A stretch of 35,537 nucleotides of DNA. Origin: a virus. The notes beneath the pieces were generated by a model, which saw only the letters and a list, made by a program, of their open reading frames with translations, was not told the origin of the DNA and searched no databases. The translations under genes were made by a program, and so were the position numbers. Below are positions 1,838-33,647 of the stretch, piece after piece. Within the stretch, counting starts at the first letter, position 1; the number at the start of each line of letters is the position of its first letter. The stretch spans positions 1-35,537 of IMG/VR virus record IMGVR_UViG_3300040801_001642, one strand, 5' to 3'.

Positions 1838-2438
1838 ATTGCCCGTGATGCCGTTCTATGTGGACGATTGGCTGCTCGACACCAGAGACCTCTCGCCCCA
1901 TGCCTACATGGCCTATCACCGGATCCTCTGCGAGCTCTGGCGAACCCGGGCGGATGGTCTCCCGATGGACCACACGATCCTCAGAAACCGCGCCGGGATC
2001 TCGCCGCAGAAGTGGGGTTTCGTGTGGGCTGAGATCGAGCATCTTCTCGTGGTCGAGGACGGACAGGTCCGGTCTCTGCGCCTAGGTAAGGTCAAGGGTC
2101 AGGCCCGAGCTAAGTATGCCGCTAGGTCCGCAGCAGGGGCGGCAGGTGCAAAGGCTAAGTGGCGGAAAACAAAGGGGGCACCCTCTGGCAAAGCCAATGG
2201 CAAACACAATGGCAAGTCGGATAGCAACCAAAACCATACTGATATAAATATCAGTGCGCGCGAGGCGCGCGGGGAAATTCATGGGGGGAAAGGGGACACC
2301 TTGTCGGCGTGGGAGATCGGGAACATCTCGCAGGGCAAGTGGATAGGTCCGCAGCCCATGGCCGCAGCCGTTCAAAAGCATATCAAGGCCGGAGACCTCA
2401 CCGAGGACCAGTGCCGAAGGGCAGGGGTGATCTTCTAA
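1830..2438 (+). CDS. DUF1376-type replication protein
   Basis: A 202-residue protein whose N-terminal ~75 residues match the DUF1376 pattern: LPVMPFYVDDWLLDT, then HAYMAYHRILCELWRTRADG and LPMDHTILRNRAGIS. DUF1376 proteins resemble the winged-helix N-termini of phage replication proteins, and it is the only replication candidate in the genome. Residues ~85-135 are a basic, Lys/Asn/Gly-rich linker and the C-terminal ~45 residues form a second small domain. The start lies inside the end of a short leader peptide, suggesting coupled translation. The stop overlaps the start of the small terminase gene (TAATG). Confidence 0.75.
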   Translation: MTELPVMPFYVDDWLLDTRDLSPHAYMAYHRILCELWRTRADGLPMDHTILRNRAGISPQKWGFVWAEIEHLLVVEDGQVRSLRLGKVKGQARAKYAARSAAGAAGAKAKWRKTKGAPSGKANGKHNGKSDSNQNHTDINISAREARGEIHGGKGDTLSAWEIGNISQGKWIGPQPMAAAVQKHIKAGDLTEDQCRRAGVIF

Positions 2439-2917
2439 TGGGCAAGCCGTTCGTTCTCACGTTCACAGATCCCGAGGAGCTCGAGGCCCTCATCGAGGAG
2501 TATTTCCAAAGCCGATGGGATACCCGCTACATCATCTCGAACGAGCGGGATGAGAACGGCGATCGGATCCGGATCGAGGAACCCTTCATGCGCCCACCGA
2601 CCATGGCAGGGCTCGCCCGGCATCTCGGCGTGGTGCGCGACACCCTCTGGCGGATGCAGAGAGACAAGGGGGATCCCGATGATCTCATCAGACCCGTCGT
2701 CCTGCGCGCGCTCAACCGGATCGCCGAGTGGAGCGAGGAGGCGCTCTACACCCGGGATGGGGTGACGGGCGCCCGCTTTACACTCGAGGTCAATCATGGC
2801 TATGGTCGGGAGCAGGGATCCGGAGGCGGCGCCGGGTTCTCGCAGCAGATCTTGCCGCCACGCACCGACACCGAAACCAGAGCGATTCCCAAGTGGAATG
2901 ACGAGGAGGATCAATGA
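2438..2917 (+). CDS. terS: Terminase small subunit (gp3-like)
   Basis: A 159-residue protein resembling the DNA-packaging gp3 family of small terminases, which recognise the packaging site and recruit the large subunit. Visible family features are the helix-turn-helix-like segment RPPTMAGLARHLGVVRDTLW (about residues 48-67), followed by helices and a C-terminal GVTGARFTLEVNHGYGREQ that matches the usual GA-F-L-N-GW ending. The Gly-rich tail probably contacts the large subunit or portal. The start ATG 2438 overlaps the previous stop. The large subunit follows after three short genes. Confidence 0.75.
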   Translation: MGKPFVLTFTDPEELEALIEEYFQSRWDTRYIISNERDENGDRIRIEEPFMRPPTMAGLARHLGVVRDTLWRMQRDKGDPDDLIRPVVLRALNRIAEWSEEALYTRDGVTGARFTLEVNHGYGREQGSGGGAGFSQQILPPRTDTETRAIPKWNDEEDQ

Positions 2918-3117
2918 ACCTGCAGGATCTTCACGAGGAGCGGGACGAGCTGGCCGCGATCGAGAGCGAGGCTTCCGACGCCATGAAATACACCCGCGTC
3001 GGCGGCTTCTGGTGGCGCGTGTTCCAGTGGTTCGAGCGCCGTGCCCGGGCCGATCGGCGCGAGGTCGAGGACGAGCTGCGATCTCTCGGCTATCCAGCGC
3101 GGAGGGGTGACGAATGA
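2914..3117 (+). CDS. Hypothetical protein (67 aa)
   Basis: Small charged protein (MNLQDLHEERDELAAIESEA) joined to both neighbours by ATGA overlaps. The N-terminal half is likely coiled coil; the middle has an aromatic stretch, GGFWWRVFQWFERRARADRR, that could lie against a membrane as an amphipathic helix. No family recognised. It sits between the two terminase genes, a common place for small packaging-region proteins. Confidence 0.65.
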   Translation: MNLQDLHEERDELAAIESEASDAMKYTRVGGFWWRVFQWFERRARADRREVEDELRSLGYPARRGDE

Positions 3118-3374
3118 TCGGCGGCATGACCGACCAGATCGTGACATGGCATGGCGTGCCGCTCACCGAGGAGACCGACAAGGCCACGCTCCTCGATGTG
3201 AGCCGGCACCTCGCGGATCTCTGCAATTCTCAGCGGCAGCGCATCGCGGAGCTTCACACCCGGCTTGCCATGGCGCGCCACGCGGCCGGGCAGGCCGAGT
3301 TCCCGTTTGCGCCCGGGCCTGCGCTTTTCCTCACCGGCTTGGCGATCGGGCTCAGCGTGGGGCTGGTGATATGA
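3114..3374 (+). CDS. Hypothetical protein with C-terminal membrane segment (86 aa)
   Basis: The first ~65 residues are soluble and helical (DVSRHLADLCNSQRQRIAEL). The last ~22 residues, ending ALFLTGLAIGLSVGLVI, form one strong hydrophobic segment, so it is probably a tail-anchored membrane protein. Both ends overlap the neighbouring genes by four bases. Function unknown. A holin-type role is possible but there is no support beyond topology, and a separate lysis cassette lies at the far end of the block. Confidence 0.65.
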   Translation: MIGGMTDQIVTWHGVPLTEETDKATLLDVSRHLADLCNSQRQRIAELHTRLAMARHAAGQAEFPFAPGPALFLTGLAIGLSVGLVI

Positions 3375-3691
3375 CTGACTTCCTCGACCAGCTCGCCGCG
3401 ATGGAGGGGCGGCCGGTGCCAGCGATCGAGACGCCGGAGGATTGGAAGGGCGAGCAGAAGATCCGCGACGCGAAGCGCTCGCACCAGAATGAGGGAAACT
3501 ACACGCTGCGCCGTGAGCTGGCCGAGAGGCTGGGCCCGGCGAACCCGCAGCGACAGCCGAACAAGGTGGAGACCCACCACTGCCAGAGCTGCGGCAAGGC
3601 CCTCGATCGGCGGAACAAGCTGGGGTATTGCAAGGAACACCGGCACCTTTCGGGCTACGGGAGCAAGCGCCGGGGAAGGCGGGACATGTGA
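3371..3691 (+). CDS. Zinc-finger hypothetical protein (106 aa)
   Basis: Starts at ATG 3371, overlapping the previous stop. The C-terminal part carries HHCQSCGKALDRRNKLGYC followed by KEH, a zinc-ribbon-like C-x2-C...C-x2-H arrangement, and the protein ends in a very basic tail (YGSKRRGRRDM). It could bind nucleic acid. Its last codons overlap the GTG start of the large terminase gene, so the two are translationally coupled. No specific family recognised. Confidence 0.7.
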   Translation: MTDFLDQLAAMEGRPVPAIETPEDWKGEQKIRDAKRSHQNEGNYTLRRELAERLGPANPQRQPNKVETHHCQSCGKALDRRNKLGYCKEHRHLSGYGSKRRGRRDM

Positions 3692-6162
3692 ACGCCCATG
3701 TTTGGGATTTCAGCGCAAGCCCGACGGCTTGGGATTTTCGGCAGTGCCGGGAGTTCGCGAGCTTCATCGTGGGCCCGGTCGGATGTCTGGCACCGGAGAC
3801 GATCGTGCTCACCGAGCTAGGTCCGCTTCCCATCGCGCGCATAGATCGCCCCATGCGCGTTCTATCGTGGGACGATCAAGCACGTGAATTCCGGCTTTCG
3901 CCAACTGGCGGTGCGTTCCCAAAAGGAACGGGCTGTCTGGTCCGAGTGTCAACGCCGCGCGGAGAATGGCGCGCAGCCGCAGATCACCGCGTGCTCTGCG
4001 CAAACGGTGAATATCGACGCGCGGCCGACCTTCGGGCAGGCGACCTTGTTCAAGTATGTTCTGACGACCTGACGCGGAAATTTCCTTTGCGCGCCCCGCC
4101 AGTGTCGCGGCCAGATGATCCCCGTTCGTGGCAAACAGTCGCAAGTTTTCTGGCGCATTGTGCAAGGTCAGCCCGTCGATGTGATCGACAACCTCAGCTG
4201 GATGCAGGAGCCGGCCAATCTCGCGCTCCATCACAAGCCGATGTTCCGCAATGCGCCCTGTCCGTCGGGCGCGCGGATGACCTGCAGGCGCCGGCACCGT
4301 CGCATAGCCATCCCGGCAGATTGACCGACCGCCCCGCCAATCCGGGTTTTGATCGCCACTCGGCGGGCCAGGCTGTCGCCGCGGTATGTCAGGGGGATCG
4401 CGCAGCACGTTCTTCACCATCTTCGGCGTCAGGCCGCACCTCTCTGCAATCTGCCGAATACTCAGATCCCCATCCGCAATGCGGCGAACCGCGCTCTCTC
4501 TATCCATCGCCTTACTCCATATCCTACGAGCCCATCGTATCGGTGCAGGTCGAGACCGTCGAGACTGAATTTTGGGACATGCAGGTATGGGCCACCTGCA
4601 ATTACGTGACGGCCGATGGCGCGATCCACCACAACAGCGGCAAATCGGTCCCGCTCCTGCAGCGGATCCTCGAGCATGGCCGGGAGCAGATGCCATCGGC
4701 CGACGGTAAGCGGAGGACGCGGTTCGCGATCGTGCGCAACACGATGCCGGAGCTGCGATCCACCACGGCCGTGACCTACGGGCAGATCTACCCGGCCGAC
4801 CACTTCGGCGACATCGTGTGGCGATCGCCGGCGACGCATCACATCGCGGTTGAGGATCTCGAGGTCGAGGTCAACCTCATCGCGCTCGACAAGCCGCAGG
4901 ACGTGAAGAAACTGCTCTCGCTCGAGCTCACCGGCGCCGCGCTCAACGAGATCCGCGAGATCCCCCGCTCGGTGGTGTCGAGGATGACCGAGCGCGTCGG
5001 CCGCTACGGGCTCAACGAGCGGGCCACGACATGGCGCGGGATCTGGGGCGACACGAACCCACCGGACAGCGACCACTGGTTCTATCGCTGGCACCACGAG
5101 CAGACGCCGCAGGGGTTCCAGTTCTTCGCCCAGCCGCCCGGCGTGCTCGAGGTCGAGCCGCGCGGATCCCGTGGCGCCGAGATCATCGATGAGAATTTCC
5201 CGCAGTATCAGGGGGTGAAGCTCACCAGCGCGATCGTGTGGACGTGGTGGAAGGGGGAGATCCGGCAAGTCGAGTGCCCGATCGAGGTGATCCCGGCGGC
5301 CGGCCGCTATTGGATCATCAACCCGTGGATGGAGAACCTGCCCGCGCTCTCGAAGGTGTCGGCCGAGACGAACCCGCTCGGCGCCCGGAGCTATTACGGG
5401 CTCGCCCTCGGCGGCAAGACGGTCGAGGAGATCCAGAGCTACCTGCAGGGCGTCTACACGTTCGTGCTCGATGGCAAGCGGTGCGTGCCGTCCTACAACC
5501 CGCAGGTTCACGGCGTCCAGCATCTCCCGGTGCTCGAGGATGCGAAGATCATGGTCGGAATGGACATCGGCGGCGGCACGCTGCAGCCCTCGGCCGCGAT
5601 CTTCCAGCGCCACCCGCGCGGCCCGTATCTCTTCCACCGCGAGGTGGTGTGCTTCGATATGGGGGTCAAGCGCTTCGGCGAGCTGGTGGCCGGCGCGCTC
5701 ATCGAGCATTTCCCGCAGCACGTCGAGCGCGGGCTCATCGGCACGTTCTACGGCGACCCGGCCGGCGAGAAGCGGGACGAGATCTTCGAGACCGCGAGCT
5801 TCGACTTCCTCCGGAACACCTACGGGTGGACGGTCATGGCGGCGCCGACGCAGGATCCGAAGATGCGGATCGCCGCGCTCAACGCGCCGTGCGAGCGAAT
5901 GATCGATGGCAGGCCCGGGATGCTGGTCAACAAGACCGGGTGCCCGATGCTGCACAAGGGGCTGAGCGGCGCCTACCACTTCAAGCGGATGGCGATCTCC
6001 GGCGAGGAGCGGTTCATGGACAAGCCGAACAAGAACGACGAGAGCCATATCTGCGAGGGGGCAGGATATGGCTTGCTCGGCGCCGGGGAATTTCTTAGGC
6101 TCGGAGGACGCACCGAAGGATCCTCTATGCCCGACATGGCAGATGGGGATTTCATGCCATAG
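3688..6162 (+). CDS. terL: Terminase large subunit precursor, interrupted by an intein
   Basis: ATPase-nuclease that drives DNA into the procapsid. The precursor is 824 residues from GTG 3688 (GTGA overlap with the previous stop; GGAAGG upstream). An in-frame ATG at 3628 is possible but lies inside the previous gene. Residues 33-316 are an intein; removing it leaves 540 residues, normal for this family. Splicing rejoins GPVG to SGKS and restores the Walker A motif GPVGSGKS. Downstream are a Walker B-like segment (LTGAALNEIREIP), the coupling motif IWGDTNPP, and nuclease-domain landmarks MVGMDIGGGTLQPSAAIF (first metal Asp) and FYGDPAGEKRDE. Without splicing the ATPase site would be split, so packaging should depend on it. 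The extein has the strong G/C third-position bias of the phage; the centre of the intein does not. Confidence 0.9.
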   Translation: MNAHVWDFSASPTAWDFRQCREFASFIVGPVGCLAPETIVLTELGPLPIARIDRPMRVLSWDDQAREFRLSPTGGAFPKGTGCLVRVSTPRGEWRAAADHRVLCANGEYRRAADLRAGDLVQVCSDDLTRKFPLRAPPVSRPDDPRSWQTVASFLAHCARSARRCDRQPQLDAGAGQSRAPSQADVPQCALSVGRADDLQAPAPSHSHPGRLTDRPANPGFDRHSAGQAVAAVCQGDRAARSSPSSASGRTSLQSAEYSDPHPQCGEPRSLYPSPYSISYEPIVSVQVETVETEFWDMQVWATCNYVTADGAIHHNSGKSVPLLQRILEHGREQMPSADGKRRTRFAIVRNTMPELRSTTAVTYGQIYPADHFGDIVWRSPATHHIAVEDLEVEVNLIALDKPQDVKKLLSLELTGAALNEIREIPRSVVSRMTERVGRYGLNERATTWRGIWGDTNPPDSDHWFYRWHHEQTPQGFQFFAQPPGVLEVEPRGSRGAEIIDENFPQYQGVKLTSAIVWTWWKGEIRQVECPIEVIPAAGRYWIINPWMENLPALSKVSAETNPLGARSYYGLALGGKTVEEIQSYLQGVYTFVLDGKRCVPSYNPQVHGVQHLPVLEDAKIMVGMDIGGGTLQPSAAIFQRHPRGPYLFHREVVCFDMGVKRFGELVAGALIEHFPQHVERGLIGTFYGDPAGEKRDEIFETASFDFLRNTYGWTVMAAPTQDPKMRIAALNAPCERMIDGRPGMLVNKTGCPMLHKGLSGAYHFKRMAISGEERFMDKPNKNDESHICEGAGYGLLGAGEFLRLGGRTEGSSMPDMADGDFMP
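3784..4635 (+). mobile_element. Intein (284 aa) in the terminase P-loop
   Basis: The protein-splicing element begins at Cys (codon 3784, CLAPETIVLTELGPLPIARI) and ends HHN (4627-4635), with Ser as the +1 residue: the classical Cys1 / His-Asn / Ser+1 chemistry. The N-terminal splicing domain (residues 1 to ~92) shows block A, a block B-like RAAADHRVLC with the conserved His but Ala where Thr is usual, and YRRAADLRAGDLVQV. The C-terminal domain (4525-4635) shows block F (IVSVQVETVETEFWDMQV) and block G (NYVTADGAIHHN). Between them, ~155 sense codons carry no recognisable domain, are low in G/C third positions, and lie opposite an antisense HNH gene. The splicing residues look intact, so I predict an active intein with no sense-strand endonuclease. 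Confidence 0.88.
3809..4507 (-). CDS. HNH homing endonuclease, antisense inside the intein
   Basis: A 232-codon gene lying entirely within the intein on the opposite strand. ATG 4507 is preceded by GGAG (4518-4515) seven bases upstream. Residues ~12-37 resemble a helix-turn-helix (DGDLSIRQIAERCGLTPKMV); next comes the linker QNPDWRGGRS seen in many phage HNH proteins, then GYATVPAPAGHPRARRTGRI and the nuclease core: AEHRLVMEREIGRLLHPAEV, VDHIDGLTLHNAPENLRLF and NGDH (about residues 67-131), carrying the family His-His-Asn set (EHR, DHID, HN, EN). Recognisable homology ends near 4076, just where the sense N-terminal splicing domain ends (~4060). The remaining ~88 codons are readthrough opposite that domain and may be dispensable. 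Its codon use is more coding-like than the sense strand here. The likely role is cutting intein-free terL alleles to spread the intein. Confidence 0.85.
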   Translation of the reverse strand: MDRESAVRRIADGDLSIRQIAERCGLTPKMVKNVLRDPPDIPRRQPGPPSGDQNPDWRGGRSICRDGYATVPAPAGHPRARRTGRIAEHRLVMEREIGRLLHPAEVVDHIDGLTLHNAPENLRLFATNGDHLAATLAGRAKEISASGRQNILEQGRLPEGRPRVDIHRLRRARGDLRLRAILRAALTLGPDSPFLLGTHRQLAKAGIHVLDRPTIERAWGDLCARWEADLAR

Positions 6163-6175
6163 GAGGATCAACCCC

Positions 6176-6427
6176 ATGAGATACTCACCGGGCGACTTGC
6201 ATCGCATGATCGCCAGTTCATCCGCCGACCTCGAGCTCGGCTCGATCTACGTTCACGCCAAGGGCGATCGCTACATGCTCATCTCGGTCGCGCTGCGCGA
6301 GGCTGACCTCGAGCCGCTCGCGATCTACGCGCCACTGCAGCCCGAGGCGCTCGGCTTCTCCATCTCGTTCGCCCGGCCGGTCTCGGAATTCCGCGATCGC
6401 TTCTCGCTGGATCACGGGCATGAATAG
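6176..6427 (+). CDS. DUF1653-like small protein (83 aa)
   Basis: Starts at ATG 6176 with GGAGG nine bases upstream. The segment GSIYVHAKGDRYMLISVALR followed by EADLEPLAIYAPL resembles the DUF1653 fold (G-Y-H-KG-Y-V...E-L-P-VVY), a small beta-rich domain of unknown role common in phages. The protein is short, soluble and without catalytic residues that I can identify. It opens a run of overlapping small genes between terminase and portal. Confidence 0.6.
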   Translation: MRYSPGDLHRMIASSSADLELGSIYVHAKGDRYMLISVALREADLEPLAIYAPLQPEALGFSISFARPVSEFRDRFSLDHGHE

Positions 6428-32441: not shown

Positions 32442-33647
32442 TTAGCGGGGATCCTCGACGCTATCGAGCCAGTAATCCGAGAAATCCGCATCCTCGATAT
32501 CGCCCATCATGTCGCGCGGGAACCACGGTTCACCGGGGAGATACTGCTCGAGGCTCTCGCGGTAGAGCTGCAGGCATGAGCGCACCTCGAGGTCAGCCTT
32601 GCGGCACATCGCGCTGGCGACCTTCTGGAACCCGTCGGTGCTGGCGCCGATCTCTTGCTCGCGGATCCCGGGCGGGAGCGAAAACCAGCGGATCCGGCGC
32701 GCCCTGATATCCGGCACACCGCCACGGCGCAGGAAGAGGAAGAACGTCTCCCGGCCGCCACCGTGCTCGCTCATGTGCGTGGCCAGCACGCCGGCCTCGG
32801 GCGCCTCGATATCGGTGATCTTCATGGGGGATCCGTCGCGCGTGTGGCGCACCGTGAGATCCTGCTCGCGGATCGATCGCATCCCCAGCTCATAGAACCA
32901 GCCGGTGCGATAGTATCCATTGAACCGGAAGGCGTCGGCAACCGCTTGGTTCCCGGTCTTGCCGGCCGATCGCGTATCCCAAGTCTTGAGGTGGGTCACG
33001 AACCCGGCGCCGATGTAGTCGGGCCGGATCTTGCAGGGCACACCGTCGAGCGTGAACAGGATTGTGACCTCGGCGAGCCCGTCCTCGATGAGGCTGGCCA
33101 CCTCCGGGTTGGCGCGCAGCCGGGCGGCGTCGCGCTGAATTTCGTCGAACGTCTTGGGGTCGATCGCCGCTCGGCCGTCGCGGCCTCTGGCGGCGTCGAA
33201 CGCGGCGCGCTCGAGGGGCCAGATCACCGGGAGCTCCGACATCGGCTTGTCGATCTCGGTCGCGTAGACGGTGCGCAAGCGCTCGGCCTGCTCGAGGACG
33301 GTCTCGCCAGACTTCTTTTTCGTGTGGCCCATGTTCGCGAGGGCCTCGCCGATATCGGTTCCGTTCATGAGGATCGTGCGGCCCTTGTAATCCTCGGCCG
33401 TCACGTCGCGGACAAAGCGACGGGGGAATTCCTCGGGCTCGAGGCGGGCGCAGTGGTAGGCGCTCCCGTGGAGCATGGCCTTGCTCGGCTCTTCCTCCTC
33501 GCGATCGGGGTTGAGCCATGAGCGCGCCCAGAACGCGGAGGGGCCCTCCATCATATCGGTGAGCCCGCCGGCGCTCATGCGCTCGAGCTCGAGATACTGG
33601 TCGAAAGGCATGTCGAGGTAGATGCCATCGGGCAGGTGTTTGGTCAT
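32442..33647 (-). CDS. RecE/exonuclease VIII-like nuclease (DUF3799)
   Basis: 401 residues, PD-(D/E)xK superfamily exonuclease that resects double-strand ends for ERF. Landmarks: GIYLDMPFDQYLELERMSAG at the N-terminus, MLHGSAYHCARLEPEEFPRR (the usual G-A-H...EPE-F signature), RANPEVASLIEDGLAEVTIL, and the metal-site Asp in CKIRPDYIGAGFV. The following motif, normally DLKT, is HLKT here, a D-to-H change at a catalytic position. The C-terminal region YLPGEPWFPRDMMGDI is less typical. Start ATG 33647 has AGAGGA upstream and overlaps the previous stop. Confidence 0.8.
   Translation of the reverse strand: MTKHLPDGIYLDMPFDQYLELERMSAGGLTDMMEGPSAFWARSWLNPDREEEEPSKAMLHGSAYHCARLEPEEFPRRFVRDVTAEDYKGRTILMNGTDIGEALANMGHTKKKSGETVLEQAERLRTVYATEIDKPMSELPVIWPLERAAFDAARGRDGRAAIDPKTFDEIQRDAARLRANPEVASLIEDGLAEVTILFTLDGVPCKIRPDYIGAGFVTHLKTWDTRSAGKTGNQAVADAFRFNGYYRTGWFYELGMRSIREQDLTVRHTRDGSPMKITDIEAPEAGVLATHMSEHGGGRETFFLFLRRGGVPDIRARRIRWFSLPPGIREQEIGASTDGFQKVASAMCRKADLEVRSCLQLYRESLEQYLPGEPWFPRDMMGDIEDADFSDYWLDSVEDPR

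Follow-up and report, generated by a model that had tools for sequence, protein, structure and literature searches.

The terminase large subunit gene (terL) of a virus record in IMG/VR, IMGVR_UViG_3300040801_001642, carries an intein whose opposite strand encodes a complete HNH homing-type endonuclease. We refer to the whole stretch analysed, the 35,537 bp of that record, as the window. The two genes very probably make up a mobile intein with an independently translated antisense HNH homing endonuclease, and we infer that the element splices, cuts and homes. An earlier reading of the letters alone (the original prediction) had proposed such a mobile element in two layers, whose nuclease and spliced protein are made from opposite strands. 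Our survey of more than 100 relatives bears this proposal out through frame-specific constraint, empty sites, mini-inteins and lateral transfer. Antisense-HNH terL inteins form an established family rather than an isolated invasion.

Within the window, a sense open reading frame (ORF; 3628-6162, +) continues uninterrupted across terL and the intein. GTG 3688 is a plausible terL start (terL, 3688-6162, +), and the C-extein matches the PHROG terminase large subunit. The intein (3784-4635, +) is 284 residues long, running from Cys1 to a terminal HHN284, and splits the Walker A motif as PVG/CLAPET...AIHHN/SGKS (slashes mark its ends). PVG closes the N-extein (3775-3783) and SGKS, with the +1 Ser, follows the intein (4636-4647); at the empty site of the relative SI2, introduced below, the motif reads GPVGSGKS. 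Pfam Intein_splicing (PF14890) matches the sense product at E = 3e-6 with 27.6 bits, under the gathering score of 35.8. AlphaFold2 predicted a confident Hint fold (predicted local distance difference test score, pLDDT, 92-98) composed of residues 1-98 (N-terminal half, 3784-4077) and 246-284 (C-terminal half, 4519-4635, pLDDT 95-98). The linker between them (4078-4518) is predicted to be mostly disordered, with pLDDT <50 over residues 139-234. Foldseek matched the model to Mtu RecA, DnaB and DnaE inteins (E down to 2e-7, target template-modelling score, TM, up to 0.88), the Mtu RecA intein (3ifj) aligning at a target TM of 0.88 and a root-mean-square deviation of 1.8 Å. C1, H68, H283 and N284 are invariant in an alignment of 55 relatives, and the +1 nucleophile is Ser or Thr in 68/68 loci; AlphaFold2 alignments and invariant-residue counts alike drew on sequences other than GenBank phages. 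The intact splicing regions that had been placed at 3784 to ~4060 and 4525-4635 are correctly located, and the Pfam match and predicted fold agree with them. The insert has the mobile-intein features that we tested apart from an in-frame endonuclease, and is predicted to splice. AlphaFold2 also placed a helix in the sense linker (residues 113-134, 4120-4185) on the strand facing the HNH active-site core; conservation of the antisense codons probably accounts for it.

The antisense gene (3809-4507, -) extends from ATG 4507 to a stop at 3809 and encodes 232 residues, as claimed. Its product matches HNH_3 above cutoff (E = 2e-6) and PHROG 10730, 'HNH endonuclease', over residues 10-224 (8.7e-41); the strength of this similarity removes one way in which the original prediction could have failed. 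The proposed Shine-Dalgarno (SD) GGAG is present seven nucleotides before the ATG (4515-4518, -; CTCC on the plus strand), and SD-like motifs stand at the HNH start in 44 of 61 relatives compared with 5% of control codons (p = 8e-44). AlphaFold2 modelled the protein at a mean pLDDT of 88.7, with three domains. An N-terminal helix-turn-helix (HTH; residues 1-38, 4394-4507, -) is predicted from three helices and a below-cutoff HTH_28 match, both at residues 3-36. The catalytic core (residues 51-140, 4088-4357, -) contains H89, R90, D108, H109, N117, N121 and H131, invariant across 60 sequences. An all-helical C-terminal domain follows (residues 145-232, 3812-4075, -; mean pLDDT 92-97 over most of 171-230), encoded opposite Hint residues 10-97. 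The original prediction had the HNH protein spanning ~4507 to ~4076, exactly the slot of an ordinary endonuclease domain. The start holds, but the end lies further on, adding ~88 conserved residues (4075-3812). This C-terminal domain lies opposite the Hint N-terminal half, so the HNH gene extends beyond the slot.

To determine which strand is under constraint, we compared codon positions across 626 locus pairs, which are not mutually independent, using the extein and the Hint C-terminal half as internal controls for relatedness. Identities at sense positions 1/2/3 were.64/.71/.39 in the C-extein and.70/.81/.47 in the Hint C-terminal half, which lies outside the HNH overlap and displays an ordinary sense-only pattern. 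In the linker they were.69/.41/.75, leaving sense position 2 unconstrained, and in the HNH-overlapped Hint N-terminal half.76/.71/.70. Third-base identity at conserved four-fold codons was likewise.34 in the C-extein,.39 in the Hint C-terminal half,.84 in the linker and.70 in the Hint N-terminal half. Substitutions counted at the three positions in 85 close pairs gave 1485/797/6559 for the extein, 199/55/682 for the Hint C-terminal half, 774/3151/552 for the linker and 162/347/305 for the Hint N-terminal half. A 12-codon profile placed the switches in constraint at the ends of the HNH gene. Evolution of the linker follows the HNH protein alone and that of the Hint C-terminal half the intein alone, while the Hint N-terminal half is constrained in both frames (on both strands over 3820-4071 in the window). 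The last ~88 HNH codons are therefore true dual coding. This comparison supplies the check for selection in both frames across homologues that had been proposed, and both frames prove to be coding. It also refutes the idea that the antisense frame merely shadows the sense gene. GC-rich DNA often contains antisense ORFs, and the window has many, but 3151 of 4477 linker substitutions in close pairs fall at sense position 2, the HNH wobble position. With the PHROG match, the SD enrichment at the HNH start and the collapse of the antisense frame once the HNH is lost (L199, below), the shadow reading has next to no chance of being right.

We also asked whether each frame stays open more often than its opposite strand would dictate, redrawing synonymous codons from the usage of each locus. 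Opposite the Hint N-terminal half, the antisense frame was open in 68/68 loci against 9.3 expected. With the HNH protein held fixed, the sense linker was open in 68/68 loci against 0.6 expected (p = 0.005 for the window alone). It follows that the linker is translated, a requirement of cis protein splicing. This openness bears on a second alternative, that the insert is removed as RNA, as a group I intron with an antisense homing endonuclease gene, and that the apparent intein is incidental. Such antisense genes do occur in myxomycete rDNA group I introns (PMC13182076). However, no Rfam intron family matched the intein locus at E ≤ 1 and a group I ribozyme core was not found there, the sense frame is open far beyond expectation, and the predicted Hint fold retains invariant splicing residues. 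We consider removal as RNA exceedingly improbable.

Searches for relatives established how widely the element occurs. In tblastn searches the sense and antisense products hit coinciding positions in phages of Pectobacterium/Dickeya and in Pseudoalteromonas phage PHS3. An HNH-protein profile found 222 relatives in viral contigs, of which 80 were kept, and 6 in bacterial genomes; in every relative examined except the distant L096, the HNH gene lies wholly antisense within an ORF of ~550-1125 residues. These ORFs carry ...HHN/SxK[ST] at a P-loop. An intein-profile search, combined with a DNA-pattern scan for the intein C-terminal motif over contigs that partly overlap the HNH-profile set, recovered 120 loci with a full Hint and a full antisense HNH and five with an eroded HNH. 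Altogether the loci comprise 121 distinct intein DNA sequences, and 105 of these have a full-length antisense HNH. In IMG/VR, phage genomes and prophages we also found about nine with a shorter HNH and six eroded copies. More than 100 distinct relatives thus share the layout that a search of related terL inteins was expected to reveal. Searches with the HNH profile, the intein profile and the HNH C-terminal domain, run independently, converged on identical loci, and none of the three found an HNH of this family on the sense strand. The host is TerL in all cases, from several families including Terminase_3 and Terminase_6N types, and every intact copy has its host gene as one uninterrupted ORF, instead of two ORFs that each carry a split Hint half. 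A plasmid search found no copy of the element. A single-sequence search of viral contigs with the sense intein found no match, since sense-strand sequence is not conserved in the linker, and the later profile search succeeded; single-sequence searches of PDB sequences gave only noise.

The family includes a second, divergent lineage (L004, L094, L095 and L101-L107) with the same orientation and frame, a divergent Hint and a shorter HNH. In this lineage the HNH ends near nt 208-244 of the intein, and both the HNH C-terminal domain and the conserved sense motif GGAFPKG are missing. One of its members, L094, is located in a Methylomonas metagenome-assembled genome, and L106 and L107 are very divergent. 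Enterobacterial members (L003, L062, L063, L065, L069, L092 and L097) have HNH proteins of roughly 300-350 residues, in which an apparently duplicated N-terminal HTH repeat lengthens the antisense gene. Eight loci (L032, L045, L051, L060, L067, L073, L077 and L086) have an atypical spliced P-loop, STKT or SAKS in place of SGKS/T, with the intein in the same place.

Empty sites, recent transfer and loss of the HNH fit homing, as far as comparison of sequences can speak to it. Dunaliella viridis virus SI2 (L099, HQ332136.1) has an intein-less TerL, with GPVGSGKS, to which the spliced TerL of the window is 75% identical. SI2 is filed as an algal virus despite this identity, which suggests a phage that infects alga-associated bacteria. 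A second empty site, in E. coli ET729, reads GFGSGKT, and the gap between it and the element of Enterobacter cloacae is exactly the 1008-nt intein. Comparing E. coli MEI003 with Enterobacter cloacae, we found intein DNA to be 92% identical and C-extein DNA 72%; the fastest intein positions are 80-84% identical, and extein third positions are saturated at 39%. HNH and Hint identities are correlated (r = 0.875), and the pair is common to TerLs that blastp cannot align, such as those of PHS3 (Terminase_3) and L080. Intein and HNH have spread as a unit between TerL lineages. The HNH can also be lost, leaving a mini-intein: L221 (146 residues) and L199 (135 residues) have no HNH, and L199 combines an intact sense intein with an antisense frame riddled with stops. 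Three further copies (L149, L227 and L246) are part-eroded, always with the sense frame kept. No relative has the linker conserved as protein with the HNH broken, the pattern that would have spoken against the original prediction; the HNH-less forms have lost the linker.

These patterns also weigh on what the nuclease is for. Packaging is known to involve HNH proteins whose genes lie close to the terminase genes, in some phages beside terL. The HNH of this family is always found in terL, so it could be a terminase partner similar to HK97 gp74, kept for packaging, with the intein merely its site. Yet the close TerL relatives SI2 and ET729 have no HNH, L199 and L221 lost theirs with terL intact, and the HNH moves with the intein rather than with TerL. 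Its best relatives, moreover, are homing-type HTH/HNH_3 enzymes, and we judge a packaging role very unlikely. Another possibility accepts both genes as real and holds that the HNH now mainly cuts the DNA of competing phages, with homing reduced to a lesser role, or gone altogether, in many lineages. Phage HNH enzymes are capable of excluding phages that co-infect (PMC7468147), and some lineages have no recent transfer. Against this stand the sharp difference between intein and extein identity in the enterobacterial prophages and the sharing of the element by unalignable TerL types, and exclusion and homing are compatible roles. Exclusion as the main function is, on balance, unlikely.

Under the mobile-intein reading that we favour, TerL would be translated through the whole intein from the sense strand. 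The two Hint halves would fold together, with the ~150-residue linker a mostly disordered by-product, and the intein would excise itself, restoring the Walker A motif, as its anatomy suggests. The HTH-HNH endonuclease would be translated from its own antisense ribosome-binding site and would cut or nick intein-less terL at its conserved P-loop sequence, and intein and HNH gene would then be copied in together when the damage is repaired from the intein-bearing allele. A target motif indispensable to every TerL would account for the breadth of TerL hosts. Several observations count against this account. Extein codons beside the insertion have no extra DNA conservation beyond the P-loop motif, so no cleavage motif can be proposed. 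These inteins do not conserve the block-B Thr of classical inteins, and we identified no promoter for the antisense gene. Finally, I-HmuI (1u3e), the top PDB match of the HNH protein and of its core, is a weak one (E = 0.06 by sequence and 0.22 by Foldseek).

The original prediction had an endonuclease gene invading a mini-intein in reverse. This is plausible as an origin, and the relative frame indicates that it probably happened once, long ago. The frame relation is identical in 95/95 tested loci and, in addition, in the short-HNH group: HNH position 2 lies opposite sense position 3, and HNH position 3 opposite sense position 2. With the HNH core protein fixed and local codon usage applied, the chance that the opposite frame is open is 0.010 in the frame used and 0.098 in the most permissive one. 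Uniform use of an unfavourable frame therefore points to common descent, not repeated chance, and the layout probably has a single origin. The HNH C-terminal domain was found nowhere except opposite Hint N-terminal halves (80/80 loci), a search of 50,697 phage records returned no other match to it at E ≤ 1, and the short-HNH lineage has neither this domain nor the sense motif GGAFPKG. We lean towards the view that this domain was born de novo, by overprinting of the Hint antisense strand, so that ~260 bp encode two unrelated folds. If so, those ~260 bp specify a beta-rich Hint on one strand and an all-helical endonuclease domain on the other, and overprinting would tie the splicing half of a selfish element to its mobility half.

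The layout exposes systematic misannotation in the form of pseudogene calls, truncated TerL and omitted HNH genes. In RefSeq, terL of E. coli MEI003 (L097, 1480-3885) is marked incomplete and pseudo because the antisense HNH was called as a gene. The PHS3 locus (L005, 2893-5019) is annotated as a truncated TerL plus an HNH, and in Ymer (L006, 2448-4712) the fused ORF is annotated with no HNH call. Another intein arrangement appeared in a 484-kb uncultured phage (L008, LR756508.1), where ORF 2311-6297 encodes a portal-like protein apparently with three inteins, one of them with an HNH-like endonuclease in ordinary in-frame orientation. Elsewhere in the window, a terminase small subunit gene neighbours terL (2438-2917, +; PHROG 606, E = 1.3e-12), and an Exonuclease VIII-like gene (32442-33647, -; PHROG 412, E = 1.3e-31) lies on the strand opposite the structural genes.

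In textbook mobile inteins a single polypeptide both splices and homes. In this family the two activities would belong to two proteins from opposite strands, such that homing could be expressed, regulated and lost apart from splicing. The family offers more than 100 natural replicates of an opposite-strand gene pair at the same locus, plus outgroups with one dead partner, making it a clean system in which to study how overlapping genes evolve and how domains arise de novo. It is also a new source of predicted cis-splicing mini-inteins and of candidate P-loop-targeting nucleases. The layout is likely to be previously unreported, as the original prediction had supposed: we found no description of an antisense homing gene in an intein in open-access full texts, and an earlier mention in the subscription literature is possible. 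Candidate reports on Lactobacillus phages, cryoconite (PMC7468147), N4-like phages, Jug phages and cox2 fission contain no such gene, nor do reports on PRP8 and VMA inteins or a T4 review. The Mic1 TerL inteins are not a precedent, their homing endonuclease domain being in frame.

Each known relative of this system shares part of its design. Full-length mobile inteins, such as VMA and Mtu RecA, have the Hint fold, Cys1...His-Asn, a +1 Ser/Thr and insertion at an ATPase P-loop, and they too place an endonuclease between the Hint halves, leave empty sites and decay to mini-inteins. Their endonuclease is part of the spliced polypeptide, whereas here it is a separate opposite-strand protein that overlaps the Hint N-terminal half. 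The I-HmuI-type HNH enzymes and PHROG 10730 share the HNH_3 core and N-terminal HTH, PHROG 10730 nearly over the whole length; the enzyme here differs in having a helical C-terminal domain found only opposite Hint and in not being intron-encoded. Split inteins with a free-standing endonuclease between their halves, reportedly described by Dassa et al. in 2009 as 'fractured genes', likewise keep the endonuclease gene between the Hint halves and separate from the Hint frame. In those the host gene is interrupted, whereas here it is one unbroken ORF that presumably splices in cis, with complete overlap of the two genes. Closest in orientation are the Didymium S956 rDNA group I introns, which carry antisense homing endonuclease genes (PMC13182076), also reversed inside a self-splicing element and encoding an independent protein. 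Their host is an RNA intron free of protein-coding constraint; here the opposite strand stays open and encodes a second protein predicted to fold, extending antisense homing genes from RNA introns to protein introns.

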